From positions 2,996,501-3,060,500 of the forward strand of contig NZ_JUGU01000001.1 of assembly GCF_000799465.1 (NCBI RefSeq): DNA of 64,000 nt, in the 5' to 3' direction. Below the pieces are notes generated by a model. That model was not told the DNA's origin. It saw nothing but the letters and a program-made list of their open reading frames with translations, and did no database searches. Within the stretch, counting starts at the first letter, position 1. Each line of letters begins with the position of its first letter. This document shows positions 3,194 to 63,145 of the stretch, one piece after another. A program made the position numbers and the translations under genes. This DNA is from Psychroserpens sp. Hel_I_66 (GTDB lineage: Bacteria > Bacteroidota > Bacteroidia > Flavobacteriales > Flavobacteriaceae).

Positions 3194-4600
3194 ATGGAGT
3201 TTAAGCGTGGAAGGTATTCATGGATTTTAAGGCCCATACTCATTGTTTACGATATATTTGTATTAAACTTTTTTGCTTACACATTATTAAATTTTAATGA
3301 CGAAAACCTTTACTTTTTTTCTTTAAAATTTTTTAACAATAAAAACTTACTCTTTTTAATTTATTCAATAATTTTTTGGTTGGTTTCAACATACTTTATA
3401 AAATTCTATAAGGTATATAGATACACATCTTTGCTAGATATACTATCATTAATAGTAAAGCAGTTTTTTACCTTCGGAATAATAACTTTTGCTTTTGAAG
3501 GAGCGTTTAGAAGTATAAATATTTCAGTCTTTGAAACTTTAAGATATTTGCTCTACGCGTTCACAGCTATTTCATTAATTAAGCTCTTTAGTTACTACAT
3601 TTTGAAATCTGTGAGGATTTATCTTAAAGGAAATCTAAGAAACATAGTGGTGATTGGTAGTGGAGAAAGTGTAAAGCAATTAAAAAGAATATTTTCAGAT
3701 AAAAGGGAACTTGGTTATAAAATTGTTGGAGTTTTTAATAATGATATTAAAAACAATGATGGCAACATTAAAGACAGTTTTAAATTTATTGAGAATAACC
3801 AATCTATAGATGAAATTTATTGCGCAATAGATGAGTTATCAGAGAGACAAATTAATGAGTACGTAAGACATGCAAATTTAAATCACTGTAACATAAAGTT
3901 TATTCCCAACACAAATAAACTTTTTACTAAAAGATTAAAAATAGATTTTTATAATTATGTTCCAGTATTATCAATCCAAGAGGTAGCTTTAAATAAAGAA
4001 TTTAATAAGTTCATTAAAAGAAGTTTTGATATTGTTTTCTCTTTATTAATTATAATTTTTGTTCTCTCTTGGTTATCTGTTATACTTTTCATTCTAATTA
4101 AATTAGAATCTAAAGGGCCCCTTTTGTATCAACATAAAAGAACTGGAATCAATTACAAAGTATTTTATTGTTATAAGTTTCGTTCTCTTACCATAACAAA
4201 GGAAATTAAAGGAACTTATGTAAAGAAAAATGATAAGAGAGTTACTAAAATTGGTAAGTTTTTAAGAAAAACAAGCTTAGATGAGATACCCCAATTTATT
4301 AATGTCCTCAAAGGCGACATGAGCGTTGTAGGGCCAAGACCACATATGCTTTCTTATACGGAGGACTATTCAAAAAAAATTAATAAATACAACTTTATTT
4401 TTAGACATAATGTTAAGCCAGGTATAACCGGCTTAGCTCAAATTAAAGGTTATCGTGGAGAGATCAAGTTTGATAAAGACATTATTAATCGAATTAAGTA
4501 TGACATATTTTATATAGAAAATTGGTCATTGCTGCTAGATTTTAAAATTATAGGTCAAACTATAATAAATTTTTTTATTGGAGACGACAAAGCCTATTAA
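3194..4600 (+). CDS. Polyprenyl-phosphate sugar-1-phosphate transferase, full length
   Basis: Full-length paralogue of the gene at the left edge, 468 residues. N-terminal half: about four hydrophobic segments within residues 10-140, then a Rossmann-like domain starting at NIVVIGSGES. C-terminal half: a membrane helix after KRSFDI and the PF02397 catalytic core with SKGP, YKFRSL, RTSLDEIPQ (Asp-Glu pair), VVGPRPH and PGITGLAQIKGYRG. Predicted role is transfer of a hexose-1-phosphate to undecaprenyl phosphate. Two such initiators so close together suggest a duplication or two sugar specificities. It starts 4 bases after the decarboxylase; its stop overlaps the stop of the convergent glycosyltransferase by 4 bases, leaving no room for a terminator. 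Confidence 0.92.
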   Translation: MEFKRGRYSWILRPILIVYDIFVLNFFAYTLLNFNDENLYFFSLKFFNNKNLLFLIYSIIFWLVSTYFIKFYKVYRYTSLLDILSLIVKQFFTFGIITFAFEGAFRSINISVFETLRYLLYAFTAISLIKLFSYYILKSVRIYLKGNLRNIVVIGSGESVKQLKRIFSDKRELGYKIVGVFNNDIKNNDGNIKDSFKFIENNQSIDEIYCAIDELSERQINEYVRHANLNHCNIKFIPNTNKLFTKRLKIDFYNYVPVLSIQEVALNKEFNKFIKRSFDIVFSLLIIIFVLSWLSVILFILIKLESKGPLLYQHKRTGINYKVFYCYKFRSLTITKEIKGTYVKKNDKRVTKIGKFLRKTSLDEIPQFINVLKGDMSVVGPRPHMLSYTEDYSKKINKYNFIFRHNVKPGITGLAQIKGYRGEIKFDKDIINRIKYDIFYIENWSLLLDFKIIGQTIINFFIGDDKAY

Positions 4601-5760
4601 AGCAGTTTTTTTAATTCATCCAATTGAGATCCAAAATTGAATGTTCTTATTGCAGTTTGCTGGATACCCTTTTTTCTTTCTTCGGAAATTTCCCCAACCT
4701 CAATCCTCGAGATTACACGATTCAAATCTTTATAATCACCAGGTCTTGCAATCCAGCCCAAATTATTTTCCTCGACCACTCGCTCACCTTCACCACCTCC
4801 AAAATAGAGCATTGGGAGTCCCAAATGTGCATATTCAAATATTTTAGAAGGTACACTTCCGTAGATTCTATTTAAGAGCGGTATAACCGTAATACCGTAC
4901 TCCATCAACAGTTTATGAAGCTCATCTCGAGTAACTCTTCCGTAGAAAAAAATGGGTAAATCAGGGTTTTGGGAAATAAAACCCTCAATTATTTTCTGCT
5001 CAGCACCAGACCCGTAAATATGAAATTCTATGCGAGAATAATCTAGCTCTTTGCACAATTTATAAATCCCTTGGGCAATCCCCAAAAGCCCAGCATAAAC
5101 GATTCTTAATTTTCCATTAGAAGTAGTTTTCTTAATTTCCGGAGGATTAAAAGCAGGAAAATTTCTGTATAAAAACGTTTTTTTCTTCGGAAACATAGAA
5201 CAAACATGGGTTAAAATCTCTTCACTTTGACCCAAAATCAAACTTGAATTCTTGTAATTATAGCGCTCAATTTTTTCTAATACTCTATAACTAAAGTTAT
5301 TTTTAAAAGCGCCCAATTCTAAACCAGCGATAGGCCAAAGGTCACTCACATTCAATATGAGATTTCTTTTTTTGCTCTTTAAAAAAAACACGCAAGTAAA
5401 AGCAACCAACAAAGGTGGAGATTGAACAATTACTGTTTTTGGGATATTGTTCCACATAAAAAACCAAATCAAACTAAAGCTGTAAGAGAGCATCGCGATT
5501 AAACGCAACAATTTGTTTTTTGAGTTGCTGGCAAAAATCCAAAGGCGATTGATGGTAATATTTTTTTCTTCGGAAACGTGCTTGAATTTACCCTTAAAAC
5601 CATCAAAAATTTGACCAGTCGGGTAATTTGGCAAAGGCGTCAATACGGTAATATTAAAATGATGTTTCTGTAAACCATCTGCCAACTGAAAGATTCGGTT
5701 GGATGCTGCTCCAATTTCTGGAGGAAAATAACTTGTGATTATTAGTACGTTTTTACCCAT
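4597..5760 (-). CDS. Glycosyltransferase family 4 (WbuB-like)
   Basis: Predicted GT-B glycosyltransferase of 387 residues adding a sugar to a lipid-linked glycan. The N-terminal acceptor domain starts ITSYFPPEIGAASNRI, typical of WbuB-like family 4 enzymes, with NYPTGQIF further on. A hydrophobic patch (residues about 85-125) is common in this subfamily and may mediate membrane association. The C-terminal donor domain has VYAGLLGIAQG, FYGRVTRDEL, the EYAHLGLPML segment and GEGERVVEENNLGW. Its start overlaps the upstream ligase stop by one base (TAATG), so the two are probably coupled. Sugar specificity cannot be read from sequence. Two copies of the TTCTTCGGAA word lie inside, plus one at its 3' end. 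Confidence 0.9.
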   Translation of the reverse strand: MGKNVLIITSYFPPEIGAASNRIFQLADGLQKHHFNITVLTPLPNYPTGQIFDGFKGKFKHVSEEKNITINRLWIFASNSKNKLLRLIAMLSYSFSLIWFFMWNNIPKTVIVQSPPLLVAFTCVFFLKSKKRNLILNVSDLWPIAGLELGAFKNNFSYRVLEKIERYNYKNSSLILGQSEEILTHVCSMFPKKKTFLYRNFPAFNPPEIKKTTSNGKLRIVYAGLLGIAQGIYKLCKELDYSRIEFHIYGSGAEQKIIEGFISQNPDLPIFFYGRVTRDELHKLLMEYGITVIPLLNRIYGSVPSKIFEYAHLGLPMLYFGGGEGERVVEENNLGWIARPGDYKDLNRVISRIEVGEISEERKKGIQQTAIRTFNFGSQLDELKKLL

Positions 5761-7180: not shown

Positions 7181-8452
7181 ATGACAATTTTAATTCTCGG
7201 TTCTGGCGGTAGGGAACATACCTTCGCTTGGAAAATAGCTCAAAGCCCTTTATGTAAAAAACTATTCGTAGCTCCAGGCAACTCTGGCACTGCGCAAATA
7301 GCGACAAATGTTGACATTAAAGTGACCGACTTTGATGCTATTAAATCCCTAGTATTGGAACATAAAATCGAAATGGTTGTTGTAGGTCCAGAAGATCCTT
7401 TGGTACTCGGTATCCATGATTTCTTTTTAAATGATGACACCTTAAAGCATGTTGCGGTTATTGGTCCACAAAAAGCTGCTGCAGAGCTAGAGGGCAGCAA
7501 AGAATTTGCAAAAGAATTTTTATATAGACACAACATCCCAACTGCAGCTTACCAAAGTTTTAACGCAAACAATGTTGAAGAAGGCTATAAATTTCTTGAG
7601 ACCCTAAATGCACCTTACGTTTTAAAAGCAGATGGTTTGGCAGCAGGAAAAGGCGTGCTCATTTTAAATGATTTAGCTGAAGCTAAAGCAGAACTAAAAA
7701 GCATGTTGCTAGACGCCAAGTTTGGTGACGCCAGCAAAACAGTAGTCATAGAAGAGTTTCTCGACGGAATTGAACTGAGCTGCTTTGTACTAACCGATGG
7801 TAAAAATTACAAAATTCTACCAACCGCAAAAGATTATAAGCGTATTGGCGAAGGAGATACAGGTTTAAATACTGGTGGTATGGGAGCGGTTTCTCCAGTG
7901 CCTTTTGCAACAGAAGAGTTTTTAAATAAAATTGAAGAGCGAATTGTGAAACCAACAATTTCCGGACTTCAAAAAGATAATCTTCCTTACAAAGGATTCG
8001 TGTTTATAGGTTTGATCAAAGTTGGTGACGACCCTAAAGTAATTGAGTATAATGTGAGAATGGGAGATCCAGAAACCGAAGTTGTTCTACCTAGATTAAA
8101 AACAGATTTGGTTGATATTTTCAGAGCTATTTCCGAAGAAAAACTCAATGAGATCGAGCTGGAAATAGATGAAAGAGCTGCAACAACTGTAATGTTAGTG
8201 TCTGGTGGTTACCCAGAAGCTTATGAAAAAGGAATGGAAATTACAGGTTTAGAACATGTAAAAGAGTCTATTGCTTTTCATGCAGGAGCAACAACAAAAG
8301 ATGGTAAGATTGTTACTTCTGGTGGGCGTGTTATGGCAATTACATCATATGGAAACACGTACCAAGAGGCCATAAAAAAATCTTATCAAAATATAGATAA
8401 ACTACATTTTGATAAGATGAATTATCGAAAAGATATTGGTTTCGATTTATAG
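7181..8452 (+). CDS. purD: Phosphoribosylamine--glycine ligase
   Basis: Second step of de novo purine synthesis: phosphoribosylamine + glycine + ATP to GAR. The 423 residues match the usual GARS length. Visible: N-terminal GSGGREHTFAWK, GPEDPLVLGI, the ATP-grasp core KADGLAAGKGV and EEFLDGIELSC, NTGGMGAVSPVP, and the metal/ATP segment EYNVRMGDPETEVVLPRL. It is monocistronic here, and its stop is one base from the convergent stop of a small membrane protein. One exact TTCCGAAGAA word falls at 8131. Confidence 0.97.
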   Translation: MTILILGSGGREHTFAWKIAQSPLCKKLFVAPGNSGTAQIATNVDIKVTDFDAIKSLVLEHKIEMVVVGPEDPLVLGIHDFFLNDDTLKHVAVIGPQKAAAELEGSKEFAKEFLYRHNIPTAAYQSFNANNVEEGYKFLETLNAPYVLKADGLAAGKGVLILNDLAEAKAELKSMLLDAKFGDASKTVVIEEFLDGIELSCFVLTDGKNYKILPTAKDYKRIGEGDTGLNTGGMGAVSPVPFATEEFLNKIEERIVKPTISGLQKDNLPYKGFVFIGLIKVGDDPKVIEYNVRMGDPETEVVLPRLKTDLVDIFRAISEEKLNEIELEIDERAATTVMLVSGGYPEAYEKGMEITGLEHVKESIAFHAGATTKDGKIVTSGGRVMAITSYGNTYQEAIKKSYQNIDKLHFDKMNYRKDIGFDL

Positions 8453-11081: not shown

Positions 11082-12104
11082 ATGTCAAAAAAACCAAAAC
11101 ACATTTTAGTAATTAGGCTCTCTGCAATGGGTGACGTCGCAATGACTGTGCCTGTTTTGAAAGCCCTTACAACACAATATCCTGAAGTTAAATTAACCGT
11201 TTTAACAAAAACGTTGTTCACTCCTTTTTTTAGAAATTTGCCAAACACACAAGTGGTGGTTGCAGATATCAAAAACCAGCACAAAGGGATTTACGGTTTA
11301 TGGAAATTATCTCGAGAGCTCAAAACACTTCAATTTGATGCTGTGGCAGATTTGCACAATGTCTTGCGAAGTAATATTCTAAACTCTTTTTTCTTCGGAA
11401 AGCAAGTCGTACAAATCAATAAAGGTCGCGAGGAAAAAAAGGCTTTAACTAACGGAACATCTTTTAAACAGCTAAAAACCAACCATCAGCGTTATGCAGA
11501 TGTTTTTGAGTCTTTAGGTTACCCGATAGATTTGAGCAATCCCATTTTTCCGAAGAAAGAAAATCTTAAGCAACAATTTTTAACAGTAATCGGGACCAAT
11601 GCTAAACCCTGGATTGGTGTTGCTCCATTTGCAGCTTTTGAGGGTAAGATGTATCCGCTGGATTTAATGGAAACTGTGATTAAAGAGCTTTCTAAAGAAC
11701 ATAAAGTACTGTTGTTTGGAGCTAAAAATGAAGAGCAGGTCACGCTAGAAAAAATTGCGACTCAATTTGAAAATGTCATCAATTTAGCAGGACAATTTAC
11801 ATTAGAAGAAGAATTAGACATCATCTCAAATTTGGATCTTATGTTGGCGATGGACTCTGGAAACGCACATATGGCTGCAATGTTGGGCATAAAGGTGGTA
11901 ACCGTTTGGGGTATTACGCATCCTTACGCTGGTTTTCTACCATTTGGTCACACAATGGATTCTGCAATTTTAGCAGACCATTCTCAATTTCCTAAAATAC
12001 CAACCTCTGTTTACGGTAACAAAATGCCAGAAGGTTATGAAAATGCCATAAGATCTATTTCTCCTAGCACTATTATTTCAAAGATCAAAACCACTTTAAA
12101 ATAA
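11082..12104 (+). CDS. Glycosyltransferase family 9 (heptosyltransferase-like)
   Basis: 340 residues. The N-terminus HILVIRLSAMGDVAMTVPVL is the GT9 acceptor-domain signature, and the C-terminal domain has the donor-binding motif LAMDSGNAHMAAMLGIKVVTVWGITHP. Enzymes of this family add heptose or related sugars to LPS core. It follows the DUF4254 gene, probably in one transcript. Two copies of the TTCTTCGGAA word (11391 and 11548, opposite orientations and different codon frames: FFG and FPKK) lie inside. The exact donor sugar is unknown. Confidence 0.9.
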   Translation: MSKKPKHILVIRLSAMGDVAMTVPVLKALTTQYPEVKLTVLTKTLFTPFFRNLPNTQVVVADIKNQHKGIYGLWKLSRELKTLQFDAVADLHNVLRSNILNSFFFGKQVVQINKGREEKKALTNGTSFKQLKTNHQRYADVFESLGYPIDLSNPIFPKKENLKQQFLTVIGTNAKPWIGVAPFAAFEGKMYPLDLMETVIKELSKEHKVLLFGAKNEEQVTLEKIATQFENVINLAGQFTLEEELDIISNLDLMLAMDSGNAHMAAMLGIKVVTVWGITHPYAGFLPFGHTMDSAILADHSQFPKIPTSVYGNKMPEGYENAIRSISPSTIISKIKTTLK

Positions 12105-14983: not shown

Positions 14984-16462
14984 ATGAAACTCAAACATTT
15001 TCTAAATCTAGAATGGAAACAGTTTCTTCGTTCTGCAAGCTTTAATAAAAGCATTGGGATAAAAATATTAATGATATTTTTTGCCCTTTACTTCATAGTC
15101 TCATTTTTAATAATGGGTATTGGCTTATATCCAGCGCTTAAGAAATTTTTTCCAGACCAAGACCCATTGGCTACGCTTAACAGTTATCTTTTCTTTTATA
15201 TCTTGGCAGATATGCTCATGCGGTTCTTTTTGCAAAAATTGCCAGTAATGTCTGTAAAACCTTTGCTTACATTGCCTATAAAACGCAATAAAGTGGTGCA
15301 TTATGTATTGAGAAAATCGGCATTTTCATTTTTTAACTGGCTACCATTATTTGCATTTGTGCCTTTTAGCATCATGTTGCTTATAAATGGTTACCCAACA
15401 ATTTCGGTGCTATTTTGGTTTTTAGCAATAATGGTTGTAACTCTTATCGTAAATTTTCTAAACTTTATAATAGAAAGTTTTTCTTCGGAAAAAGAGCTGT
15501 CTTTCCTCCCAATTATTCTATTCGCAGGAAGTTTGTTTGCGCTTAATCATTTTGAGGTTATTTCATTTTCAGAATTAATAGCTAACGCATTTACAGCTAT
15601 TTATAACAACCCGATTTTTATATTGGTGCCAATACTTATTTTGATTGCACTTTATATAGTCAATTTCAAGATACTGAAATCTAAATTATATCTCGATAGC
15701 TCATTAAAAAGCAAGGTTGCTGTGGTTAATGCATCTTCAATGGAATGGACAAAGCGTTTTGGCGATATTGCGCCATTTATGCAATTAGATTTAAAACTCA
15801 TTTGGAGAAATAAACGACCAAGATCTACCGTATTTTTATTGATATTTGGTTTGCTTTATGGTTTGGTCTTTTATCCAAACCCACAATTTGCAGATTCTCC
15901 AATGATTTTTGGGTTTGTAGGTATTTTCGTGACCGGTATTTTCTTGATAAATTTTGGTCAATTTATCCCAGCTTGGGATAGTGGTTATTACAAAATGCTA
16001 ATGAGTCAAAATATTAAATATGAACAGTATTTAAAGTCTAAATACACGCTCATGATTTTGAGTGTGATTATCATGTTTGTCTTAAGTGTTCCGTATGTTT
16101 ATTTTGGATGGAAAATATTGGCAGCACATTTTGCAGCAGCATTTTACAACATAGGTGTTAATAGTTACGTGATCATGTTTGGAGGATCTTATAACCGTAA
16201 AAAAATAGACCTAAATCAGCGAGCAGCCTTTAATTATCAAGGTACGGGAGCTGTACAGTGGATCATTGGAATTCCGTTAATGATTTTACCAGCAGCTATT
16301 TTTGGTTTAACAGCCTTTTTTGTGAATTTCGAAGTAGGATTGCTTGCACTTATTTTGTGCGGTTTAACAGGCATTATATTACATAAAAAACTCATCAAAT
16401 TTATCACTCAAAAATATTTAGATTCAAAATATAAAATGATTGACGCTTTTAGTCAAGATTAA
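14984..16462 (+). CDS. ABC exporter permease-like membrane protein (DUF5687-like)
   Basis: 492 residues with about twelve predicted membrane helices in two bundles, and a soluble stretch near the middle (residues 235-275, LKSKVAVVNASSMEWTKRFG). Matches the Bacteroidota DUF5687 family, which is found with a downstream ATPase as here (10-base gap). It therefore looks like the membrane part of an ABC exporter controlled by PadR. Substrate is unknown. One exact TTCTTCGGAA word lies at 15481 (codons for SSE). Confidence 0.82.
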   Translation: MKLKHFLNLEWKQFLRSASFNKSIGIKILMIFFALYFIVSFLIMGIGLYPALKKFFPDQDPLATLNSYLFFYILADMLMRFFLQKLPVMSVKPLLTLPIKRNKVVHYVLRKSAFSFFNWLPLFAFVPFSIMLLINGYPTISVLFWFLAIMVVTLIVNFLNFIIESFSSEKELSFLPIILFAGSLFALNHFEVISFSELIANAFTAIYNNPIFILVPILILIALYIVNFKILKSKLYLDSSLKSKVAVVNASSMEWTKRFGDIAPFMQLDLKLIWRNKRPRSTVFLLIFGLLYGLVFYPNPQFADSPMIFGFVGIFVTGIFLINFGQFIPAWDSGYYKMLMSQNIKYEQYLKSKYTLMILSVIIMFVLSVPYVYFGWKILAAHFAAAFYNIGVNSYVIMFGGSYNRKKIDLNQRAAFNYQGTGAVQWIIGIPLMILPAAIFGLTAFFVNFEVGLLALILCGLTGIILHKKLIKFITQKYLDSKYKMIDAFSQD

Positions 16463-17306: not shown

Positions 17307-19898
17307 TTGAATACATCTTTTAAAGTCTTAATATCAGTCTTTTGCATAACAATGATCATTACAAGCTGTTCTCGTAAAAAAGACACCTTTGTAAACCGTA
17401 ATTTTCATGCTTTAGGCACAAAATATAATATTCTCTATAACGGTAATATTGCCTTAGAAAACGGAAGAGAAACAGTAGATAACGCTGCAACAGATAACTA
17501 TTGGCAACTGTTGCCTATAGAGCGTATGCAGGTTTCAGACGATTTTATATTACCAGGTCAATCCAAAAACCAAGACTTTGAACGTGCTGAGGAAAAAGCA
17601 ATTAAAGCAGTTCAAAAACATGGGATGAACATTAAGGGTAAAGAGTACAATCCCCAAATTGATGAAGCTTATTTGTTGTTGGGTCAAGCACGTTATTTCG
17701 ATCAACGTTTTGTGCCAGCTTTAGAGGCTTTCAACTATATTTTGTACAAATATCCAGCAAGTGATAAAATAAATACAGCAAAAGTTTGGAGAGAGAAAGC
17801 AAACATTAGATTAGAGAATAATGAGCTTGCTATTAAGAACCTCAAACGCCTTTTAGAACAAGAAGAGTTAGAAGACCAGGATTTGGCAGATGCAACCTCT
17901 ATTTTAGCTCAAGCCTATATTAATACTAAGTCAAAAGACAGCGCACTTGCCCAACTTTCAATTGCTGCAGACTTCACAAATAAGAATAAGGAAAAAGCAC
18001 GTTTTAATTATATCATTGGACAATTGTATGATGACTTCGGAAAAAAAGACAGCGCAAACCTGGCTTACGATAAGGTCATTGATATGCACCGTAAGATCCC
18101 GAGACCATACTACATCAATGCACACTTAGCCAAATCAAATAACTTTGATATGGAAAACGGAAACCAGATCGAGTTCTTAGAATACTTAACAGATTTGGAA
18201 GAAGATCGAGAAAATCGTCCGTTTTTAGATAAGATTTATTACCGCATTGCAGAGTTTCATAGAGCGAATGAACGAGATTCTATGGCAATAGCCTATTACA
18301 ACAAATCATTACGCACCAATTTAGGAGATAAAGAATTAAAATCACGGGATTATTCCACTCTTGGGGACATGAGCTTTGACGTTGCAGAATATAAAGTAGC
18401 AGGTGCTTATTACGATAGTACAATGACGAACATGAAGCTTAACTCTAAGCCCTATCGCGTTGTTAAGCGTAAAAGGGAAAATCTTGAGGATGTCATTTAT
18501 TACGAAGATATTGCTCAACAAAATGACAGTATTATAAGATTGGTAAATTTTTCCGAAGAAGAAAGGCTTACTTATTTTACAACCTATACCGAGGAATTAA
18601 AACTGTTGGCAGAAGCCGAAAAAGAAAAGAAAGAAGCCGAAGAGCGTCGTAATGCAGCAAGTTCTGGATTAAAAACCGGGAACCTCAATAATAACAGTAA
18701 AGTAGATGGTAACGCAGTTTTAAAATCTGTAAGAGCAAATCCAGGAGTGGCCACCAATAGCGGTAAAGAAAGTGAATTTTACTTTTATAACCCTACAACA
18801 GTTTCCTACGGAAAAAGTGAATTCGTAAAAATTTGGGGAAATAGAGAATTAAAAGATAATTGGAGATTATCCAATACTGCTGGAAGAGGTCAAAACAATT
18901 TAGAGGTAATCGATATCGCTGCAAATGCAACAGAAGATGAGCGCTTTGATCCTCAGTTTTATATTTCGCAAATCCCAATAGAGCAAAAGGAAATTGATAG
19001 TTTGGCAAAAGACAGAAATTATGCCTATTATCAACTTGGTGTTATCTACAAAGAAAAATTTAGCGAATTTGAATTAGCTAAAGTTAGGCTAGAGACATTA
19101 TTACAGAACGATCCAGAAGAGCGTTTGATATTGCCCTCTAAATACAATCTCTATAAAATCTATATGGAATTAGGCTTGGAGAATAAAGCCAATGTCATGA
19201 AGAATGATATCATAAATGCATATCCAGAGTCTAGATATGCGCAAATACTGCTCAATCCAAAATCAGAATTCGCAAAAGACGAAAACAGTCCAGAAAGTTT
19301 ATACAACAACTTATTTAAGCAATTTGGCGATCAGGAATATGCTGAGGTAGTAGCTAAAGCAGATGAATATATTACACAGTTTGAAGGCGATCCAATGGTT
19401 CCTAAGTTTGAAATCTTAAAAGCTTCTGCCAACGGAAGGTTAAATGGATTTGAAGCCTATAAAAAAGGTGTAAACTATATTGCGTTGACGTATCCAAATT
19501 CCGAAGAAGGAAAAAAAGCGAAAGAAATTTTAGAGAACGCAATCCCGATTCTTGCTAAAAAAGAATTTGTAAGCGACGATACAGGAAAACGTTTTAATGT
19601 ATTATATCCCTTTACCAATGCTGAAAAAGGCGAGATAGATGATTTTGTGAAAAAACTGGACACCGCACTTGAGAAAATCAACTATTTTGATTTGTCAACA
19701 TCGGTTGATTTCTATGATGAAAATACGACATTTGTTGTAGTTCATGGGCTTAAAAGTATTCAAGGAGCAGCTGGTTTTGCTGAAATCTTAAAAGAAAATA
19801 AAGATAAGATAGATAGAAGTTATTATTCAATTTCATCTCCTAATTATGAAATTGTACAACGACATAAAAATTTAAACGAATACCTAGAATCTCAATAA
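17307..19898 (+). CDS. sprE: T9SS periplasmic TPR lipoprotein, SprE/PorW family
   Basis: 863-residue lipoprotein required in relatives for type IX secretion and gliding. The start is TTG at 17307, giving a complete lipoprotein signal peptide with lipobox ITSC at about residues 18-21; the next ATG would leave too short a signal. The mature protein begins SRKKDTFVNRNFHALGTKYNILYNG (see residues 22-46 in two parts: SRKKDTFVNRNFH, ALGTKYNILYNG), typical of SprE, followed by many TPR-like helical pairs (e.g. EAYLLLGQARYFDQRF, AYYQLGVIYKEKFSEFELA). A charged low-complexity segment lies near residues 435-465. Neighbours bactofilin and atp genes are as in other flavobacteria. Three T9SS cargo proteins are encoded elsewhere in this window. 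Confidence 0.88.
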   Translation: MNTSFKVLISVFCITMIITSCSRKKDTFVNRNFHALGTKYNILYNGNIALENGRETVDNAATDNYWQLLPIERMQVSDDFILPGQSKNQDFERAEEKAIKAVQKHGMNIKGKEYNPQIDEAYLLLGQARYFDQRFVPALEAFNYILYKYPASDKINTAKVWREKANIRLENNELAIKNLKRLLEQEELEDQDLADATSILAQAYINTKSKDSALAQLSIAADFTNKNKEKARFNYIIGQLYDDFGKKDSANLAYDKVIDMHRKIPRPYYINAHLAKSNNFDMENGNQIEFLEYLTDLEEDRENRPFLDKIYYRIAEFHRANERDSMAIAYYNKSLRTNLGDKELKSRDYSTLGDMSFDVAEYKVAGAYYDSTMTNMKLNSKPYRVVKRKRENLEDVIYYEDIAQQNDSIIRLVNFSEEERLTYFTTYTEELKLLAEAEKEKKEAEERRNAASSGLKTGNLNNNSKVDGNAVLKSVRANPGVATNSGKESEFYFYNPTTVSYGKSEFVKIWGNRELKDNWRLSNTAGRGQNNLEVIDIAANATEDERFDPQFYISQIPIEQKEIDSLAKDRNYAYYQLGVIYKEKFSEFELAKVRLETLLQNDPEERLILPSKYNLYKIYMELGLENKANVMKNDIINAYPESRYAQILLNPKSEFAKDENSPESLYNNLFKQFGDQEYAEVVAKADEYITQFEGDPMVPKFEILKASANGRLNGFEAYKKGVNYIALTYPNSEEGKKAKEILENAIPILAKKEFVSDDTGKRFNVLYPFTNAEKGEIDDFVKKLDTALEKINYFDLSTSVDFYDENTTFVVVHGLKSIQGAAGFAEILKENKDKIDRSYYSISSPNYEIVQRHKNLNEYLESQ

Positions 19899-25266: not shown

Positions 25267-25276
25267 TTCTTCGGAA
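25267..25276 (+). repeat. Intergenic copy of the TTCTTCGGAA word
   Basis: Exact 10-base copy outside any gene, 18 bases before atpG. Other intergenic exact copy: 51404-51413; near copy (TTCCGAAGAG) at 52894. Shows that the word is not only a by-product of codon choice. See findings. Confidence 0.7.
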
Positions 25277-37245: not shown

Positions 37246-38214
37246 TTAATACCCAACCTTGCTACGAACACGAGCCAAAACCTCATTTGCAACCAACTTG
37301 GCCTTTTCAGCTCCGACAGCCAAAGCAGCGTCAATTTCGCTGAGGTTAGACATGTAATGGTTGTAACGTTCCCTTTCCGAAGAAAACTTTGAGAGTATCA
37401 ACTCATATAACGCCTGTTTTGCATGACCGTAACCGTAACCTCCATTTTCGTAATTGGCTTTCATGGTCGTAATCTCACTTTGAGATGCCAGTAAGTTATA
37501 CAACGCAAAACAGTTGCAGGTTGACCAATCTTTAGGATCCTCAAGAGGAGTGCTGTCTGTTTCAATAGACATGATTTGCTTACGCAATTGCTTTTCTGGT
37601 AAAAAGAGATTGATAAAGTTGTTTCTGCTTTTACTCATTTTTTCACCGTCAGTTCCAGGAATAAGCATGGTGTTTTCTTGTACTTTACCTTCTGGCAACA
37701 CAAAAGTATCTCCCATTTGAGCATGAAAACGTGATGCAACGTCACGGGTCATTTCTATGTGCTGTAACTGGTCTTTGCCTACTGGGATAATTTCGGCATC
37801 ATATAATAAAATATCTGCTGCCATAAGCATTGGGTACATGAACAAACCAGAGTTAACGTCATCTAAACGGTCTGCTTTGTCTTTAAAACCATGGGCTAAT
37901 TTTAAGCGCTTGTATGGAAAAAAACAGTCTAAATACCAAGCCAGTTCGGTCACCTGCGGAATGTCACTTTGGCGATAAAACACAGTTTTTTCTATATCCA
38001 GACCAAACGCTAACCAAGTGGCTGCGGTAGAATAGGTGTTTGCTCGTAATAGCTCACCATCTTTAATTTGTGTGAGTGTGTGCAAATTTGCGATGAACAA
38101 ATAGGAATCGTTATTTGGGTCGTTTGCCATTTCTATTGCAGGCAAAATGGCGCCTAAGATGTTTCCTAAATGTGGTGTTCCTGTACTTTGTATTCCTGTT
38201 AGTATTCTTGCCAT
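37246..38214 (-). CDS. trpS: Tryptophan--tRNA ligase
   Basis: Class I aminoacyl-tRNA synthetase, 322 residues. HIGH-type motif TGTPHLGN, KMSKS motif GEKMSKSRNN, and the Trp-binding segments MYPMLMAADILLYDAEIIPVG (in part) and VGKDQLQHIEMTRD. Length is normal for bacterial TrpRS. A REP-like hairpin lies in the predicted 5' leader, 8 bases before the start; a TACCTTTG box is about 80 bases upstream. Confidence 0.97.
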   Translation of the reverse strand: MARILTGIQSTGTPHLGNILGAILPAIEMANDPNNDSYLFIANLHTLTQIKDGELLRANTYSTAATWLAFGLDIEKTVFYRQSDIPQVTELAWYLDCFFPYKRLKLAHGFKDKADRLDDVNSGLFMYPMLMAADILLYDAEIIPVGKDQLQHIEMTRDVASRFHAQMGDTFVLPEGKVQENTMLIPGTDGEKMSKSRNNFINLFLPEKQLRKQIMSIETDSTPLEDPKDWSTCNCFALYNLLASQSEITTMKANYENGGYGYGHAKQALYELILSKFSSERERYNHYMSNLSEIDAALAVGAEKAKLVANEVLARVRSKVGY

Positions 38215-41889: not shown

Positions 41890-42894
41890 TTACTGTGTTG
41901 CTTTGATATTAGCGCGAACCTTTTCTTCAAGTTCATCCATTAATTCTGGATTGTCTTTTATCAATGCTTTTACCGCATCACGACCTTGACCTAATTTGGT
42001 TTCGCCATAACTAAACCAAGAACCACTCTTTTTAACAATTTCTTGTTCTACAGCAACATCTAGAATTTCTCCAACTTTAGATATACCTTCACCATACATG
42101 ATGTCAAATTCACACATTTTAAATGGAGGAGCGACCTTATTCTTGACCACTTTTACTCTGGTTTTATTTCCTGCAACATTACCATCTGTTTCCTTAATTT
42201 GAGTAGAACGTCTAATATCTAATCTTACCGAAGCATAAAATTTTAAAGCATTACCACCAGTAGTCGTTTCTGGATTACCAAACATAACTCCAATTTTTTC
42301 ACGTAATTGGTTAATAAAGATCACGGTACAATTTGTTTTGCTTATAGATCCTGTTAATTTTCTTAATGCTTGAGACATTAAACGCGCGTGTAGTCCCATT
42401 TTAGAGTCACCCATTTCACCTTCAATTTCACTTTTTGGCGTTAATGCAGCAACCGAGTCAATAACAACGATATCAATAGCTCCAGATCTAATAAGGTTAT
42501 CTGCAATTTCTAAAGCTTGTTCACCATTATCTGGTTGGGAAATAATTAAGTTATCTATATCTACGCCTAATTTTTCAGCATAAGTTCTATCAAAAGCATG
42601 CTCTGCATCAATAAATGCTGCGATACCTCCAGCTTTTTGAGCTTCGGCAATGGCATGTAATGTTAGTGTTGTTTTACCAGAAGATTCCGGACCATAAATC
42701 TCTATCACACGACCCCTTGGGTAACCACCAACTCCTAAAGCAATATCAAGACCTAAAGAACCTGAGGAAATAGCATCTACATCAACCACTGCTTGATCGC
42801 TCATTTTCATAACGGTTCCTTTTCCGTAGGCTTTATCTAATTTATCTAAAGTTAATTTTAATGCTTTTAATTTAGCGTCTTTTTCACTGCTCAT
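41890..42894 (-). CDS. recA: Recombinase RecA
   Basis: 334 residues. Walker [11 protein letters not shown], Walker [13 protein letters not shown], the L1/L2 region with [16 protein letters not shown] and [13 protein letters not shown], and the C-terminal acidic tail shorter than in E. coli. Strand exchange and SOS functions; partner of DprA if the cell takes up DNA. Monocistronic, with a strong terminator. No LexA-type box was recognised in the upstream 100 bases. Confidence 0.97.
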
Positions 42895-44662: not shown

Positions 44663-45667
44663 ATGAATATCTATAAACTTTTACAGCTTAATAGAAAGAT
44701 TAAAAGTCATAGAATTAAATTTCTTGGTCTATACCTTTTGCATAAATTTAATAAAAGGTATTTAGCGGTAAATCTAGATCCCGTCATGGCATGTAATTTA
44801 CGCTGTAAAATGTGTTATTTTACAGATGAGGATTATGTAAAAACACTCAAAGGCCAATTTAAGGATGACGAGTTGGAATTGGTTGCGAAATCTATTTTTA
44901 AACGCGCTTTAAAGTTGCAAATAGGTTGCGGTACAGAACCTACGCTATATAAAAATTTAGTTAGAATTGTGGAATTGGGCAAAGCGTACAAAGTACCTTA
45001 TATCTCCATAACTACCAATGCCAATCTGCTTTCCGAAGAAAAAATAGAAGCATTATTAAGAGCTGGACTTAATGAATTTACCATATCTCTTCACGGTGTA
45101 ACTAAAGAAAGTTATGAGAATTTCATGAAAAAAGCCAGTTATGAAAAGTTTCAGAACGCGTTTAAGGCTTTTGCAAAATTAAAATCGAAGTATGATTTCA
45201 AGGTTAGGATAAATTACACATTCAATAAAGATAATTTTTACGAGCTAAAGGATTTTTTCAATCATTTTAACGCCAATAGTTTTGATATTTTGCAAATAAG
45301 ACCTATTCAAAAAATAGGAAACACAGAGTATAATGATTTTGATATCTCCACTTTAAAAGAGGATTATCCTGCGTTGATAGAATCGATTAGAAATAATTGT
45401 AAAGACCACAAAATAACGCTTTTAGCTCCAAATACGCTGTCAGTTTTAGAGGGTAAAAACCAGTCGAGTTTCATTTTTGATTATACGTTTTGTTACATTT
45501 CCCCGAACAAATTCTGGAAAGACGGATTTAACTGGAAAGAAGAGAGCTTCAATCAATACTCAAACAAAATAGGGTGGAGTCAAATGCTGTTTTCTAACGT
45601 CTTTAAAACAAAAACCGAGTTAAAAACCCTATCCAATAGATTGAACTACGAGATAGAGTTTAATTGA
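44663..45667 (+). CDS. Radical SAM protein
   Basis: 334 residues. The cluster motif is CNLRCKMC (CX3CX2C) in LDPVMACNLRCKMCYFTDED. The partial TIM barrel continues with TEPTLYKNLVRIVELG, ITTNANLLSEE and NEFTISLHGVTKESYENF. It lacks a clear C-terminal SPASM cluster; a single late Cys (FCYI) is present. Resembles Bacteroidota radical SAM/heme-type or glycan-locus proteins; substrate unknown. Only 3 bases after trhO, so probably cotranscribed. Confidence 0.88.
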   Translation: MNIYKLLQLNRKIKSHRIKFLGLYLLHKFNKRYLAVNLDPVMACNLRCKMCYFTDEDYVKTLKGQFKDDELELVAKSIFKRALKLQIGCGTEPTLYKNLVRIVELGKAYKVPYISITTNANLLSEEKIEALLRAGLNEFTISLHGVTKESYENFMKKASYEKFQNAFKAFAKLKSKYDFKVRINYTFNKDNFYELKDFFNHFNANSFDILQIRPIQKIGNTEYNDFDISTLKEDYPALIESIRNNCKDHKITLLAPNTLSVLEGKNQSSFIFDYTFCYISPNKFWKDGFNWKEESFNQYSNKIGWSQMLFSNVFKTKTELKTLSNRLNYEIEFN

Positions 45668-51354: not shown

Positions 51355-51420
51355 TCGTGGTCGGAATTTTAAGACATCATGAAAGCCATATAAATATTTA
51401 TTTTTCTTCGGAAAAATATA

Positions 51421-53230: not shown

Positions 53231-54922
53231 CTATAATCCTTTTGGAATAGCATGAATAAGTTTTTTAGTGTATTCTTTTTGAGGATTTCTGTAGAGTTCA
53301 TCTGCATCTCCCATTTCTTCAATTTCCCCTTTATTCATTACAACCAATTGATCAGACATATATTTAACCACAGCCATGTCGTGTGAAATAAATATATAGG
53401 TAAATCCAAAATCATTTTTAAGTGTATTAAGCAGGTTTAAAACCTGGGCCTGAACTGAAATGTCAAGTGCAGAAACCGATTCGTCACAAATAATTAGTTG
53501 AGGTTCTAAGGCAATAGCTCTAGCAATGCCAATACGTTGTCTTTGTCCGCCAGAAAACTCATGAGGATAGCGATTAAAATAAGTTTCGTCTAAACCAACT
53601 TTTAACAATAGATCTAAAACGCGCTGTTTTCTATCTACTTCAGAGGTGCCAATATGATGAACTTTCATTGGTTCCATAATTGCGTTTCCCACTGTAAGTC
53701 TTGGGTTTAGTGATGCGTAGGGATCTTGAAAAATGATCTGGATGTCTTTTCTAAGTTTTCTAATTTCAGACTTTGAAAGTTTGGTAATGTCTTCACCTTG
53801 ATATAAAATGGAGCCAGCAGTAGCTTTGTCTAATTGCAATATAGCGTTTGAAAGTGTTGATTTCCCGCATCCAGATTCTCCAACCAAGCCTAAAGTTTCC
53901 CCTTTGTATAGTTTGAAGGATACATTATTCACAGCTTTAAAAGTATCTGGTTTTGAGAACCATCCAGATTTTGATATGAATTCCTTTTCGAGATTTATGA
54001 CTTCTAAAAGAGGTTTTTTATCGTATAATGTTTTGTGGGCTTGAGAGCGTTCTTCCGAAGAAATAATATCTGATTTAGCAGTTTTATTAATAAAATCATC
54101 AATGGTTGGTAATTGCTTAAGTCGCGTGTCCATTGATGGTTTTGAGTTGATTAATGCTTTGGTGTATAAATGCTTCGGAAATTTAAAAACTTGCTCAACG
54201 TCACCTTGTTCAACAATATCTCCGCGATACATCACCATAATTCTATCTGCAATTTCTGAAACAAGTGACAAGTCATGGGAAATAAAGATAATGCTCATTT
54301 CTTGCTCTTTTTGTAACTGTTTTAGCAACAAAATAATGTCTTTTTGTACGGTAACGTCAAGCGCAGTTGTTGGCTCGTCTGCAATTAATATTTTGGGTTT
54401 ACAGGCAATTGCCATGGCAATCATGACACGTTGTTTCTGTCCTCCCGAAATTTCATGAGGATACGCGTCGTAAACACGTTGATGTGTTGGTAATTTTACT
54501 TTTTCAAAAAGGGATAATGTTTCGTTTTTTGCTTTAGGTTTTGAAAGAGTTGTATGTTGCAAAAGTACCTCTTGAACTTGTTCACCGCAGGTCATTGAAG
54601 GGTTTAGAGAACTCATTGGTTCTTGAAATATCATTGCAATTTCGTTACCTCTTATGTTTTGAAATTGTTTGGATGTAAGGTTGGTGAGGTCTCGCTCTTC
54701 AAATAGAATCTGTCCATTTTTGATTTTTGAAATTTTCTTCGGAAGCAAACCAAGAATCGCTAATGAGGATACCGATTTTCCTGAACCAGATTCTCCCACA
54801 ACACCTAAAATTTCATTTGGATGCAAATAATAGGAAATGTTATGAATAATCTCTTTTTCAATGCTCTCCGAAGAAAAAGAAATTGAAAGGTTTTTGACAT
54901 CAAGTAATTTTGTTTTAAGCAT
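53231..54922 (-). CDS. Fused OppD-OppF-type ABC transporter ATPase
   Basis: 563 residues with two complete ATPase domains. First: GESGSGKSV (Walker A), ISGGQKQRV (signature), LIADEPTTALD (Walker B). Second: GESGCGKST, FSGGQRQRI, LIICDESVSALD, where the Walker B glutamate motif reads CDESVSALD as usual for OppF. Each half has the oligopeptide-type C-terminal extension (KHLYTKALINSKP and QKEYTKKLIHAIP). It energises peptide or nickel-type import; no permease or binding protein is adjacent, so the partners are elsewhere. Four copies of the repeated TTCTTCGGAA-like word lie within. Confidence 0.94.
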   Translation of the reverse strand: MLKTKLLDVKNLSISFSSESIEKEIIHNISYYLHPNEILGVVGESGSGKSVSSLAILGLLPKKISKIKNGQILFEERDLTNLTSKQFQNIRGNEIAMIFQEPMSSLNPSMTCGEQVQEVLLQHTTLSKPKAKNETLSLFEKVKLPTHQRVYDAYPHEISGGQKQRVMIAMAIACKPKILIADEPTTALDVTVQKDIILLLKQLQKEQEMSIIFISHDLSLVSEIADRIMVMYRGDIVEQGDVEQVFKFPKHLYTKALINSKPSMDTRLKQLPTIDDFINKTAKSDIISSEERSQAHKTLYDKKPLLEVINLEKEFISKSGWFSKPDTFKAVNNVSFKLYKGETLGLVGESGCGKSTLSNAILQLDKATAGSILYQGEDITKLSKSEIRKLRKDIQIIFQDPYASLNPRLTVGNAIMEPMKVHHIGTSEVDRKQRVLDLLLKVGLDETYFNRYPHEFSGGQRQRIGIARAIALEPQLIICDESVSALDISVQAQVLNLLNTLKNDFGFTYIFISHDMAVVKYMSDQLVVMNKGEIEEMGDADELYRNPQKEYTKKLIHAIPKGL

Positions 54923-58300: not shown

Positions 58301-59343
58301 ATGCTCTGGGAAGCATCGATCTTGAGGCGAGTGATGACAATGGGACGACCTGGACATCCATATGGAACAGTAGTGGAAATTTGGGAGATACTTGGCTAAC
58401 AGCAAATGTAGACCTTGGAGCCTATGCAGGAGGAAGTCTACAATTGCGTTTCAATAGAGTAACCGGTAACACATGGCAAGGGGATGTCGCGATAGACGAT
58501 GTTTATTTATCTGAGGGTAGTACTGGTAATTCCTCAAACACCGGTAACGGATGCTTGGATGGTATCAGCTCCTTCCCATATTCGGAGGGGTTTGAGAACA
58601 CTTTGGGAGCCTGGTCGCAATCGTCAATTGACGATACGGACTGGATGGTCAATTCAGCTGGGACACCATCGACAGGTACAGGACCGTCAGGTGCTTCACA
58701 GGGCACTTATTATGTTTATGTTGAAGCATCAGGGGATACGGGATATCCTAACAAACAAGCTGTTTTAAACTCACCATGTTTTGATTTAAGCAGTGAAACT
58801 TCAGCTACATTCAGTTTTAATTATCACCAGTTTGGAGACAAAGAAATGGGAACTATAGAGTTAGAGGTTAGTCAAGATGACGGAGTAAGTTGGACTAGCA
58901 TATGGAATAGTATAGGAAATCAAGGTAATTCTTGGAACGCAGCTAATATCGACCTTTCTGCTTATACTGGAGGAAGTTTACAATTGAGATTCAACAGAAT
59001 TACGGGTAGTGTATGGAAAGCAGATATTGCCATTGATAATGTTAATTTATCAACCAGTTCTATTTCCTCAAGAAATATGACTGATATATCTAAAGAACCC
59101 ACAGAAATAAATGAAGTAAAGGAAATCATTTTATATCCTAATCCGGTTGAAGGAAAAACACTTTATATAAAGTCTGAATATTCCAACCTTTCTTATGAAA
59201 TTTACAATATGGTTGGACAGAAAGTTTCCGCAGGAATTGTAAAAAACAACTCTATGAACATTAGTAATTTAAACGGAGGAGTCTATAGAATCATATTTTC
59301 TTCGGAAGGAGAAATCATTACAAAACAGTTTATCAAACAATAG
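55363..59343 (+). CDS. T9SS-exported pectate-lyase-like protein with four MAM-like domains
   Basis: 1326 residues. After a 34-residue extension comes a signal peptide (KQTILFSFLIFLSFTALNAQ); TTG at 55465 would start exactly there (LNHIFKQ) and may be the true start. Residues 60-400: right-handed beta-helix of the pectate lyase type (FPTANGAGAYATGGRGKPVY, VRFRPSYPAY, CSISWGTDE). From 532, four MAM/jelly-roll-like domains starting at 532, 711, 890 and 1070, the first three almost identical in DNA. C-terminal T9SS type A sorting domain from about 1245 (LYPNPVEGKTLYIKS, NLNGGVYRIIFSSEGE). Predicted extracellular polysaccharide lyase bound to the cell surface. The next gene carries one more copy of the same domain. 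Confidence 0.88.
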   Translation: MMCKIDNVLNESINSLNTSVKNSLINKNKVGDSKLNHIFKQTILFSFLIFLSFTALNAQTLKAFPTANGAGAYATGGRGKPVYVVTNLNNSGVGSFRQALENTKNTDGGIITFAVSGTIVLTNKLHFRDQDNVTIAGQTSPDGGITIVGANSSARFEISNMNNLIIRYVRFRPSYPAYPATELDALNISHCSNYIIDHCSISWGTDETADAGNGSNFTWQRNLFAESNKTGMILGGDVDQSENMSFINNMFYNCSKRFPNYQSNGRVDVINNVVWNFRTLISVSQGGHDLNHIGNYYQYFTNYPAADESRWNLWYPFSQATGAPVTQFPSIYTSGNYISDVLTNPNADNYFTWRWRFNPIGTPYSGAPTNSQLTTDFKANTQFPLLGGSFAIQSAVDAFEDVRYNVGANARLDENGNNIEEIDNPDSIYLNNVQNDILVNFTPETNLSTAHYNAFQASVSTQPINTHPSNFDTNNDGIPNQWMLNKGFNESQDITTYVWPSGYVGIEEYLNEIDDVTLLPTFTTECPLEVTSFPYSEGFENTLGAWSQSSFDDTDWMVNSAGTPSTGTGPSGASQGTYYVYVEASAMGSPTKQAILNSPCFDLSGLTDANFSFKYHQFGADALGSIDLEASDDNGTTWTSIWNSSGNLGDTWLTADVDLGAYAGGSLQLRFNRVTGNTWQGDVAIDDVYLSEGSSGNSSNTGNGCLDGISSFPYSEGFENTLGAWSQSSIDDTDWMVNSDGTPSTGTGPSGASQGTYYVYVEASAMGSPTKQAILNSPCFDLSGLTDANFSFKYHQFGADALGSIDLEASDDNGTTWTSIWNSSGNLGDIWLTADVDLGAYAGGSLQLRFNRVTGNTWQGDVAIDDIYLSEGNTNSSSNTGNGCLNGISSFPYSEGFENTLGAWSQSSIDDTDWMVNSDGTPSTGTGPSGASQGTYYVYVEASAPMGSPTKQAILNSPCFDLSGLTDANFSFKYHQFGADALGSIDLEASDDNGTTWTSIWNSSGNLGDTWLTANVDLGAYAGGSLQLRFNRVTGNTWQGDVAIDDVYLSEGSTGNSSNTGNGCLDGISSFPYSEGFENTLGAWSQSSIDDTDWMVNSAGTPSTGTGPSGASQGTYYVYVEASGDTGYPNKQAVLNSPCFDLSSETSATFSFNYHQFGDKEMGTIELEVSQDDGVSWTSIWNSIGNQGNSWNAANIDLSAYTGGSLQLRFNRITGSVWKADIAIDNVNLSTSSISSRNMTDISKEPTEINEVKEIILYPNPVEGKTLYIKSEYSNLSYEIYNMVGQKVSAGIVKNNSMNISNLNGGVYRIIFSSEGEIITKQFIKQ
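56956..59050 (+). repeat. Tandem coding repeat, 537/537/540-base units
   Basis: Units begin at 56956, 57493, 58030 and 58570. Units 1-3 differ at few positions; unit 3 has one extra codon (Pro, near 58196). Unit 4 is near identical only up to about 58710 and then diverges sharply while keeping the same fold. Confidence 0.9.
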
Positions 59344-59371
59344 ATTAGATTTTTTAATAAATTTACTTAGT

Positions 59372-62007: not shown

Positions 62008-62030
62008 ATATATTTAATTAGTTGATATTA

Positions 62031-62060
62031 AAAATCCAGACATCGTGTCTGGATTTTTTT
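62031..62060 (+). terminator. Rho-independent terminator
   Basis: AAAATCCAGACA / TGTCTGGATTTT, 12-bp stem with a 3-base loop (TCG) and T run. Ends the protease transcript. Confidence 0.88.
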
Positions 62061-62063
62061 GTT

Positions 62064-62340: not shown

Positions 62341-62431
62341 TTGATTTTAGTCATAAAAAAGTTTTAGACTAGTACATAATTTCCCTTTAATTTATTTCCA
62401 TTTACAACTTAACTAGCTACGAATATGTTGC

Positions 62432-63145
62432 CTAAACGTGAATGATCTCATTATCATGAAGTAGCTCATCTCCACGTAATCTCAAAAATATCTGAGCCAC
62501 TGCTATTGTATCTTTCTCGCAATAGGTAATGATGCGGTCTACTTCCTTTTCTTTGTAATAGACACGATACACTTCGCTGCCATCTATGTCATCTTTTGGT
62601 GATGGGATGCCTAAAACATTGGTTAGTAATTTAAGAGAGGTATAGGTTTTATAGTCTCCAAACTTCCAGAGTTCTAATGTGTCGACGTGTGGGACTTCCC
62701 AGGGTTTTTTTCCGAAGAGATTTAATTTATAAGGCAACTCTATATTGTGAATGATCATACGACGTGCGATATACGGGAAATCAAATTCCTTCCCGTTGTG
62801 CGCACAAAGCAAATGTTTGCTGGAGCTAAAATGAGTGATGAGAAGATTTTTAAAATCTTTCAGAATTTTAATTTCATCACCAAAAAAAGATGTGACCCTA
62901 AACGTTCTCACATCACCTTCCATTTTAAAATACCCTACCGAAATACAAACTATTTTACCAAACTCTGCCCAAATGCCTGCGCGCTCGTAAAATTCTTCCG
63001 CAGTAAATTCGTCACGTCTTTGATATTGTGATTTATGGGACCATAAGTCTTGTTTGACGTCATCCAATTCAGAAAAATGCTCAGTCTCAGGAACTGTTTC
63101 GATGTCTAAGAATAAGATGTGTTCTAAATTGAGTTTTGAAATCAT
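62432..63145 (-). CDS. DnaQ-like 3'-5' exonuclease (PolB-related)
   Basis: 237 residues of the DEDD exonuclease superfamily: ExoI LFLDIETVPE (Asp/Glu), ExoII LLCAHNGKEFDFPYIARRM (Asp) and ExoIII with YCEKDTIAVAQIFLRL (Asp near the C-terminus; the preceding residue pattern is of the DEDDy-like predicted PolB-exonuclease group). Acts on DNA or RNA 3' ends; specific role unknown. Its start overlaps the stop of the S41 peptidase by one base, so the two are coupled. Confidence 0.88.
   Translation of the reverse strand: MISKLNLEHILFLDIETVPETEHFSELDDVKQDLWSHKSQYQRRDEFTAEEFYERAGIWAEFGKIVCISVGYFKMEGDVRTFRVTSFFGDEIKILKDFKNLLITHFSSSKHLLCAHNGKEFDFPYIARRMIIHNIELPYKLNLFGKKPWEVPHVDTLELWKFGDYKTYTSLKLLTNVLGIPSPKDDIDGSEVYRVYYKEKEVDRIITYCEKDTIAVAQIFLRLRGDELLHDNEIIHV

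Follow-up and report, generated by a model that had tools for sequence, protein, structure and literature searches.

The genome of Psychroserpens sp. Hel_I_66 (a single contig of 3,842,990 bases) carries an eight-letter word, CTTCGGAA, in about 2,170 copies, roughly twentyfold over expectation, and this word is the core of a non-palindromic motif with a one-sided flank, T-rich–CTnCGGAA–A. On balance, the motif (a T tract, the core CTnCGGAA and a following A) is probably a DNA uptake signal that marks ‘self’ DNA for natural transformation. Attention had been drawn to it, in the form of the exact 10-mer TTCTTCGGAA, by a sequence-only reading of one 64-kb stretch of that genome (bases 2,996,501-3,060,500, referred to here as the window). 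All 20 of the exact copies listed in that reading are present (12 on the plus strand and 8 on the minus strand), where 100 dinucleotide shuffles of the window gave a mean of 0.19 copies and never more than 1; its figure of about 37 cores agrees with a count of 37 (20 plus and 17 minus); and of the six positions that it gave for the 9-mer TCTTCGGAA, three are exact and three are off by one (the correct ones are 20393, 36958 and 45774). Its placement of dprA and recA in the window is confirmed by TIGRFAM profile matches.

The abundance of the word is a property of the entire genome. Throughout, counts were compared with those of the reversed word as a control. The 10-mer occurs 970 times in the whole genome (459 plus and 511 minus; control 16, or 8 and 8), and the core 2,174 times (1085 plus and 1089 minus; control 118, or 56 and 62), the latter corresponding to 566 per Mb. 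In a sample consisting of 60 spread 20-kb stretches plus the window (1.264 Mb), the core is the most extreme of all 8-mers, with 701 copies seen against 34.6 expected from a third-order Markov model, and when words of 6 to 12 letters are ranked by over-representation, CTTCGGAA, its sub-words or its extensions lead at every length. Within the 1,048 genes predicted in the sample by a purpose-made simple caller (87% of bases), 590 cores were counted, against 38.4 +/- 6.3 (largest 49) in 40 within-gene shuffles of synonymous codons. The genome-wide, Markov and codon-shuffle comparisons that had been proposed earlier therefore find an enrichment that persists far outside the window and exceeds both null models, and that neither codon usage nor amino-acid motifs explain; the codon shuffles likewise uphold the earlier view that the word is not one protein motif.

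The asymmetry that had been ascribed to the word is equally real, in that CTTCGGAA differs from its own reverse complement and its T-rich flank lies on one side. In 699 contexts, T is found 5' of the core at 74% of positions -3, 68% of positions -2 and 61% of positions -1, and at about half of positions -4 to -6 and -8 to -9; A follows the core (at +8) in 62%, and a weak C-rich, G-poor trend continues in the 3' direction to about +27. Within the core, the third position is freely tolerant (with CTGCGGAA seen 181 times versus 20.6 expected, CTACGGAA 158 times versus 20.0, and CTCCGGAA 31 times versus 8.3), the seventh position is weakly tolerant (2.0- to 3.9-fold excess), and all remaining single substitutions lie between 0.2- and 1.9-fold except for CTTCCGAA. 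The last of these (145 versus 34.6) was rejected as an enriched variant in its own right, because 132 of its 145 copies are CTTCGGAAG on the opposite strand.

The word is distributed with little regard to direction. With origin and terminus placed from the guanine-cytosine (GC) skew, 364 of the 701 cores in the sample are oriented with the leading strand and 337 with the lagging strand (z = 1.0). This absence of strong origin-to-terminus polarity led to the rejection of a segregation signal of the FtsK-orienting polar sequence (KOPS) type, and it weakens the chromosome-organising role that the sequence-only reading had considered. Cores within genes are divided between sense (317) and antisense (273) orientations, and another 110 are intergenic, in 13% of the bases, at densities of 0.84 per kb in convergent, 0.67 in tandem and 0.58 in divergent gaps. 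The rarest reading frames of the core (8 and 22 copies) are those requiring the arginine codons CGA or CGG, which we take to be rare in this genome. The gaps between successive cores are close to random (coefficient of variation 0.98), and of the 22 pairs found within 60 bp of each other, 9 are arranged plus-minus, 1 minus-plus and 12 on the same strand.

Certain regions are nearly devoid of the word. Over 63 stretches, the number of cores per 20 kb averages 11.1 and ranges from 0 to 20, and it is lower the further the composition of a stretch departs from the genome median (Spearman -0.53). The three emptiest stretches (L-numbers denote DNA stretches) are restriction-modification islands: L115 (0 cores) encodes HsdR, HsdM and HsdS; L129 (0 cores) encodes an ISP-type restriction-modification enzyme, an HNH protein and a DnaG-like primase; and L133 (1 core) encodes an integrase and another type I restriction-modification system (16 proteins were scanned across the three, of which 5 were unmatched). 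Such gene content suggests that all three were recently acquired.

Conservation of the word follows its abundance. Two regions of the genome were aligned with the corresponding loci of relatives, and identity over eight letters was scored for the word and for control 8-mers of the same composition. Across all 25 loci, the word was identical at 41 of 151 sites (controls 792 of 8307). In a second set, comprising 19 relatives' genomes grouped by 10-mer count, the word was kept at 20 of 44 sites in those with at least 200 copies (controls 222 of 2256), at 9 of 29 sites in those with 107-199 copies (controls 113 of 1467), and at 2 of 41 sites in those with 106 copies or fewer (controls 139 of 2283). 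The word is thus held above background only in word-rich lineages, by a measure that is not fully independent of the word counts and is drawn from relatives that share ancestry.

Those word-rich lineages are scattered across the Flavobacteriaceae. (G-numbers denote the surveyed genomes, G000 being that of strain Hel_I_66 itself, and g-numbers denote genera.) Among named genomes, the closest DprA to that of strain Hel_I_66 belongs to Psychroserpens (85% to P. burtonensis). In 23 genomes of that genus alone the 10-mer occurs 53 to 970 times, where the reversed word has 12 to 39 copies. When a genome is termed enriched if it holds, counted by hand, at least 40 copies of TTCTTCGGAA and at least three times the control, and good if it is at least 90% complete and at most 5% contaminated, 43 of 299 genomes in the family are enriched, including 37 of the 249 good ones, and the spread is patchy. 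Elsewhere in the family, core counts reach 2,187 (G034) and 2,099 (G084); the weakest enriched genomes (G121, G277, G053, G111 and G117) hold 516 to 736 cores, or 132-168 per Mb. In a sample of the phylum (296 genomes, 30 of them Flavobacteriaceae), members of other families hold at most 430 cores and at most 120 per Mb (G497). Unguided k-mer counts place CTTCGGAA at the top of the 8-mers in stretches of G018, G003, G034, G061, G122 and G049; it was not evident in one 15-kb stretch of G135.

Several other observations were made in the course of these counts. The words TTCAGAAA, TTCTGAAA and CTTCAGAA are over-represented in stretches of the word-bearing genomes G061 and G122 and of Patiriisocius, and may be a degenerate form of the word or a second dialect. 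In G263 (Flavobacteriaceae), CTTCGGAA is strongly under-represented (5 copies versus 60 of the reversed word), a depletion that could result from a restriction site or from strong avoidance. The low-count Psychroserpens G007 has a dispersed repeat with ACAACGTGTATAA-like words, occurring at least 20 times in 100 kb (L178 and L211-L214), that is likely to belong to a longer mobile repeat, and G003 (L150 and L151) has a second dispersed repeat, with TGTCATTCAG-type words about 15 times in 40 kb. The window itself contains short-repeat-like 10-mers, namely ACTGAATACT (9 copies) and AACACCAAAC (8 copies).

Uptake sequences have been described for the Pasteurellaceae and the Neisseriaceae (PMC7811141), both of which use type IV pili, the structures with which known uptake sequences work (PMC12616744). 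The PilC/T2SSF platform protein, the sole type IV pilus component searched for, is absent from the genome of strain Hel_I_66 and is no commoner in enriched genomes (9 of 37) than in good genomes overall (57 of 249; Fisher 0.83), and on both grounds the type IV pilus was rejected as the uptake machine. Riemerella anatipestifer transforms without pili, and a transposon screen in it (PMC8459023) names ComEC, DprA, ComF, RecA and four new proteins as essential, with an essential adjacent pair formed by RA0C_RS04915 (CarboxypepD_reg, outer membrane) and RA0C_RS04920 (DUF5689, surface). The transformation of R. columbina is inhibited by DNA of the same organism, whereas foreign DNA in the same amount has no such effect, and the published k-mer table contains A- and T-rich words only (PMC7965970, Table 3 for the latter).

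The genome of strain Hel_I_66 encodes ComEC, DprA and RecA, together with a DUF5689 surface lipoprotein and its CarboxypepD_reg outer-membrane partner (Table 1). Homologues of both genes of this pair were found in all 40 loci inspected (20 from Psychroserpens, including the genome described here, and 20 from other genera), which had been picked around a DUF5689 match. The surface protein is predicted to combine the DUF5689 domain with a C-terminal jelly roll of the adhesin type, and no DNA-binding fold was seen alongside that predicted jelly roll. It diverges much faster than its operon partner (between G010 and G016, 92% for the partner and 59% for the surface protein), and a role in specificity is therefore possible. 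Long forms of the surface protein (669 to 891 amino acids) occur among the G304, G094, G135, G061 and G277 loci, and in G304, G094 and G135 it has two DUF5689 matches. A gene of the endonuclease/exonuclease/phosphatase family lies beside the pair, oriented away from it, in 39 of the 40 loci (in the remaining one, that of G014, the sequence starts within the pair, so that the gene could not be seen), and its product is a candidate for the cutter of surface-bound DNA.

Table 1. Copies of the word and associated genes; positions are those of the window unless a stretch or contig is named.
Feature	Position	Strand	Remark
TTCTTCGGAA word	4678..4687	+	
TTCTTCGGAA word	5183..5192	+	
TTCTTCGGAA word	5566..5575	+	
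TTCTTCGGAA word	8131..8140	-	
TTCTTCGGAA word	11391..11400	+	
TTCTTCGGAA word	11548..11557	-	
TTCTTCGGAA word	15481..15490	+	
TTCTTCGGAA word	18551..18560	-	
TTCTTCGGAA word	19499..19508	-	
TTCTTCGGAA word	25267..25276	+	
TTCTTCGGAA word	30952..30961	+	
TTCTTCGGAA word	33112..33121	+	
TTCTTCGGAA word	37375..37384	-	
TTCTTCGGAA word	40014..40023	-	
TTCTTCGGAA word	40299..40308	+	
TTCTTCGGAA word	45031..45040	-	
TTCTTCGGAA word	51404..51413	+	
TTCTTCGGAA word	54053..54062	-	
TTCTTCGGAA word	54735..54744	+	
TTCTTCGGAA word	59298..59307	+	
Core CTTCGGAA	3472..3479	+	core only
Core CTTCGGAA	18035..18042	+	core only
Core CTTCGGAA	20394..20401	+	9-mer TCTTCGGAA
Core CTTCGGAA	28188..28195	+	core only
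Core CTTCGGAA	36959..36966	+	9-mer TCTTCGGAA, inside dprA
Core CTTCGGAA	45775..45782	+	9-mer TCTTCGGAA
Core CTTCGGAA	49539..49546	+	core only
Core CTTCGGAA	54173..54180	+	core only
Core CTTCGGAA	6390..6397	-	core only
Core CTTCGGAA	9708..9715	-	core only
Core CTTCGGAA	12907..12914	-	9-mer TCTTCGGAA
Core CTTCGGAA	21366..21373	-	core only
Core CTTCGGAA	25944..25951	-	core only
Core CTTCGGAA	40467..40474	-	core only
Core CTTCGGAA	49746..49753	-	core only
Core CTTCGGAA	52894..52901	-	9-mer TCTTCGGAA
Core CTTCGGAA	62710..62717	-	9-mer TCTTCGGAA
dprA, DNA-processing protein	36028..37131	+	TIGR00732, 3.3e-60
recA	41890..42894	-	TIGR02012, 9.8e-170
CarboxypepD_reg outer-membrane protein gene	L171:6489-9341		own genome
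DUF5689 surface lipoprotein gene	L171:9398-10831 = G000:C1:2731398-2732831		own genome
Endonuclease/exonuclease/phosphatase-family gene	L171:5279-6349		adjoins the pair, pointing away

As an uptake signal, the word would act as follows. At the cell surface, the DUF5689 lipoprotein would bind free DNA that bears it, and would thus read the word and raise the uptake of fragments containing it; the bound DNA would then pass the CarboxypepD_reg partner in the outer membrane and subsequently ComEC, and, in an organism that would accordingly be competent, would undergo recombination through DprA and RecA. Since fragments with the word would enter more frequently than others, copies changed by mutation would be restored, so that the word would build up wherever recombination reaches, and recently acquired islands would be word-free. 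Four roles had been listed by the sequence-only reading (an uptake signal, a protected methylation site, a chromosome-organising or nucleoid-protein site, and a mutational hot word like HIP1), and of these the uptake signal fits best, owing to the balance between strands, the near-absence of the word from islands, its conservation in word-rich relatives only, and the presence of transformation genes; the roles of a HIP1-like hot word and of a chromosome-organising signal of the KOPS type are weakened.

The relationship between the word and these genes was followed across the 299 genomes of the family, of which 268 have a match to the surface protein and 271 have the DUF5689 domain. All 37 enriched good genomes carry the surface protein, the DUF5689 domain and ComEC, and none of the 19 good genomes that are without a surface-protein match is enriched (one-sided Fisher 0.041, kinship ignored). 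Two genomes, G079 and G223, are enriched without such a match, at a completeness of 80% and 68%, and G243, which also has no match, is near the threshold (73 copies versus 25) and has a DUF5689 match. Of 11 tested genomes without a surface-protein match, three (G052, G120 and G237) are without ComEC. The best single contrast is found in genus g31, where G277, with both the surface protein and ComEC, has 516 cores (control 219), whereas G052, with neither, has 91 (control 209). Within Psychroserpens, the comparison of genomes with a surface protein of the Hel_I_66 type (12) and of a divergent type (9) reached only a one-sided p = 0.059, and similarity to the Hel_I_66 surface protein was rejected as a predictor of the word, being unsupported across the 299 genomes.

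A number of results weigh against an uptake signal, and the association just described is weak. The surface protein is present in 230 good genomes, of which 193 lack enrichment; when genomes are divided by the DUF5689 domain instead, 37 of 234 versus 0 of 15 are enriched (one-sided p 0.083, kinship again ignored). Five genomes (G106, G080, G198, G159 and G296) score high to the Hel_I_66 surface protein and are not enriched, G003 has 601 copies of the word and a very different surface protein, and no gene was found whose presence predicts the word. In 80-100 kb each of the non-enriched genomes G036, G192, G139 and G043, in which the surface protein is present, no comparably strong word turned up; these four thus give no sign of dialects of an uptake word, and single loci (21 kb at most) are too short for a firm search. 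Core count per stretch also rises with GC content (Spearman 0.43), and the islands are AT-rich. The reversed-word control is itself rough across compositions, since some genomes of other families with low counts show high ratios (for example G501, 208 versus 4). Finally, none of 197 genomes in a sister family (f2, which is probably the Weeksellaceae and would then hold species proven to be competent) comes near 566 cores per Mb. The highest core count in that family is 564 (control 275, in a genome of 4.7 Mb), and the highest density noted, 167 per Mb in G605, equals that of the weakest enriched Flavobacteriaceae, so that the border of the trait is soft. Separately, a moderate excess of CTTCGGAA is seen in f2, with 502 versus 115 reversed copies in G605 and 338 versus 22 in G751; it may stem from base composition or be a weak form of the trait.

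A different function could also maintain such a word. It may be a selected site that has nothing to do with uptake, resembling HIP1 of cyanobacteria or a nucleoid-type site, and read by a solitary DNA methyltransferase or a chromosome-binding protein; this is rather unlikely, and yet abundance inside and outside genes, lineage-dependent upkeep and scarcity in islands would be expected of it as well. HIP1 is likewise a very abundant eight-letter word that some genomes of its group hold in low numbers, and it differs in being a palindrome (GCGATCGC) linked to orphan methyltransferases (PMC4390886). The present word, in contrast, is not palindromic and has its T-rich flank on one side, and in the single within-genus contrast available (genus g31) it accompanies the transformation genes. 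The lack of a palindrome, together with conservation beyond that of control 8-mers, similarly weakens the notion of a HIP1-like hot word.

The motif might alternatively be a Chi-like signal, one that halts a nuclease of the AddAB type and promotes the repair of double-strand breaks. Chi sites are short, asymmetric and over-represented, all of which holds for the word as well. In Escherichia coli, Chi is biased to the leading strand, and no such bias is found here; as regards RecBCD, 56 of 57 genomes, that of strain Hel_I_66 included, have no RecC (PF04257; AddAB was not searched for); and the almost 20-fold spread of counts within one genus, from 53 to 970, is not what one would expect if the word served a housekeeping enzyme. 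Core and flank together also exceed the lengths of known Chi sites, and a Chi-like role is accordingly improbable.

Equally improbable is a word without function, created as a mutational or repair hot spot by biased mismatch repair or by replication slippage. A word that is spread over the genome in several reading frames needs no selected function, and the neighbouring T tracts could be slippery, but word-rich relatives conserve the word above composition-matched 8-mers, the islands are nearly free of it, and the motif's positions differ sharply in how strictly they are kept, as they do in recognition by a protein. The last alternative, a terminator-like RNA hairpin with a cUUCGg tetraloop (UUC-UUCG-GAA), hardly deserves credence: the 10-mer does provide a perfect 3-bp stem and a UUCG loop, a share of the cores is intergenic, and there is a weak pairing-like trend (G at +8 in 16 of 52 contexts with C at -3 versus 116 of 648; p = 0.028), but sense and antisense copies are nearly equal, and in enriched genomes of higher GC content only 7 of 27 (G034) and 5 of 18 (G049) contexts have the T at -1 that pairing calls for.

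With an uptake signal as the preferred interpretation, the word would resemble an uptake sequence in its working and lies outside the pilus-read groups, the DNA uptake sequence (DUS) of the Neisseriaceae and the uptake signal sequence (USS) of the Pasteurellaceae. The USS of Haemophilus influenzae, which occurs about once every 1-2 kb and has a flank rich in A and T, is similar in these respects. It also shares with the present word that it is a short sequence repeated many times in a genome with transformation genes (PMC7811141), whereas the word and the phylum are different, the effect on uptake is here a matter of inference, and the USS employs type IV pili, for which a minor pilin is the predicted receptor (PMC12616744). 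The DUS is similar in its strict inner core; it is similar, too, in its thousands of copies and its spread at the level of a family, five genomes of which are without an obvious DUS (PMC3630211). In contrast, its binding protein is the minor pilin ComP (PMC12616744), while the gene for the pilus platform is missing here, and its dialects track the core-genome tree (PMC3630211), while here one core is common to many genera. The machinery of Riemerella agrees in gene order, a CarboxypepD_reg outer-membrane gene being followed by a DUF5689 surface gene in both, and a preference for self DNA is reported in R. columbina (PMC7965970); it differs in that no uptake word is known there, going by Table 3 of the same source, and in that CTTCGGAA is less dense in the 197 f2 genomes.

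No report of this word, or of any uptake word in the Bacteroidota, was found among the papers listed from the literature covered (open-licence papers in PubMed Central, PMC). A broader proposition can be offered tentatively, as one that may well prove wrong: that with CTnCGGAA an uptake signal is found for the first time outside the Proteobacteria and, also for the first time, one that is read without a type IV pilus, that a rapidly diverging DUF5689/adhesin lipoprotein seated on a CarboxypepD_reg partner in the outer membrane selects self DNA, and that the genera of Flavobacteriaceae sharing the word form a single DNA-sharing ‘club’ that extends beyond the limits of a genus. If this is true, a signal in the Bacteroidota would show that the marking of self DNA arose independently and on a different machine, and the Riemerella-type transformation machine would gain a substrate that is testable with two synthetic fragments. 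The partners in DNA exchange among flavobacteria would become readable from sequence, and the addition of the word to DNA would provide a practical handle for the genetics of marine flavobacteria.

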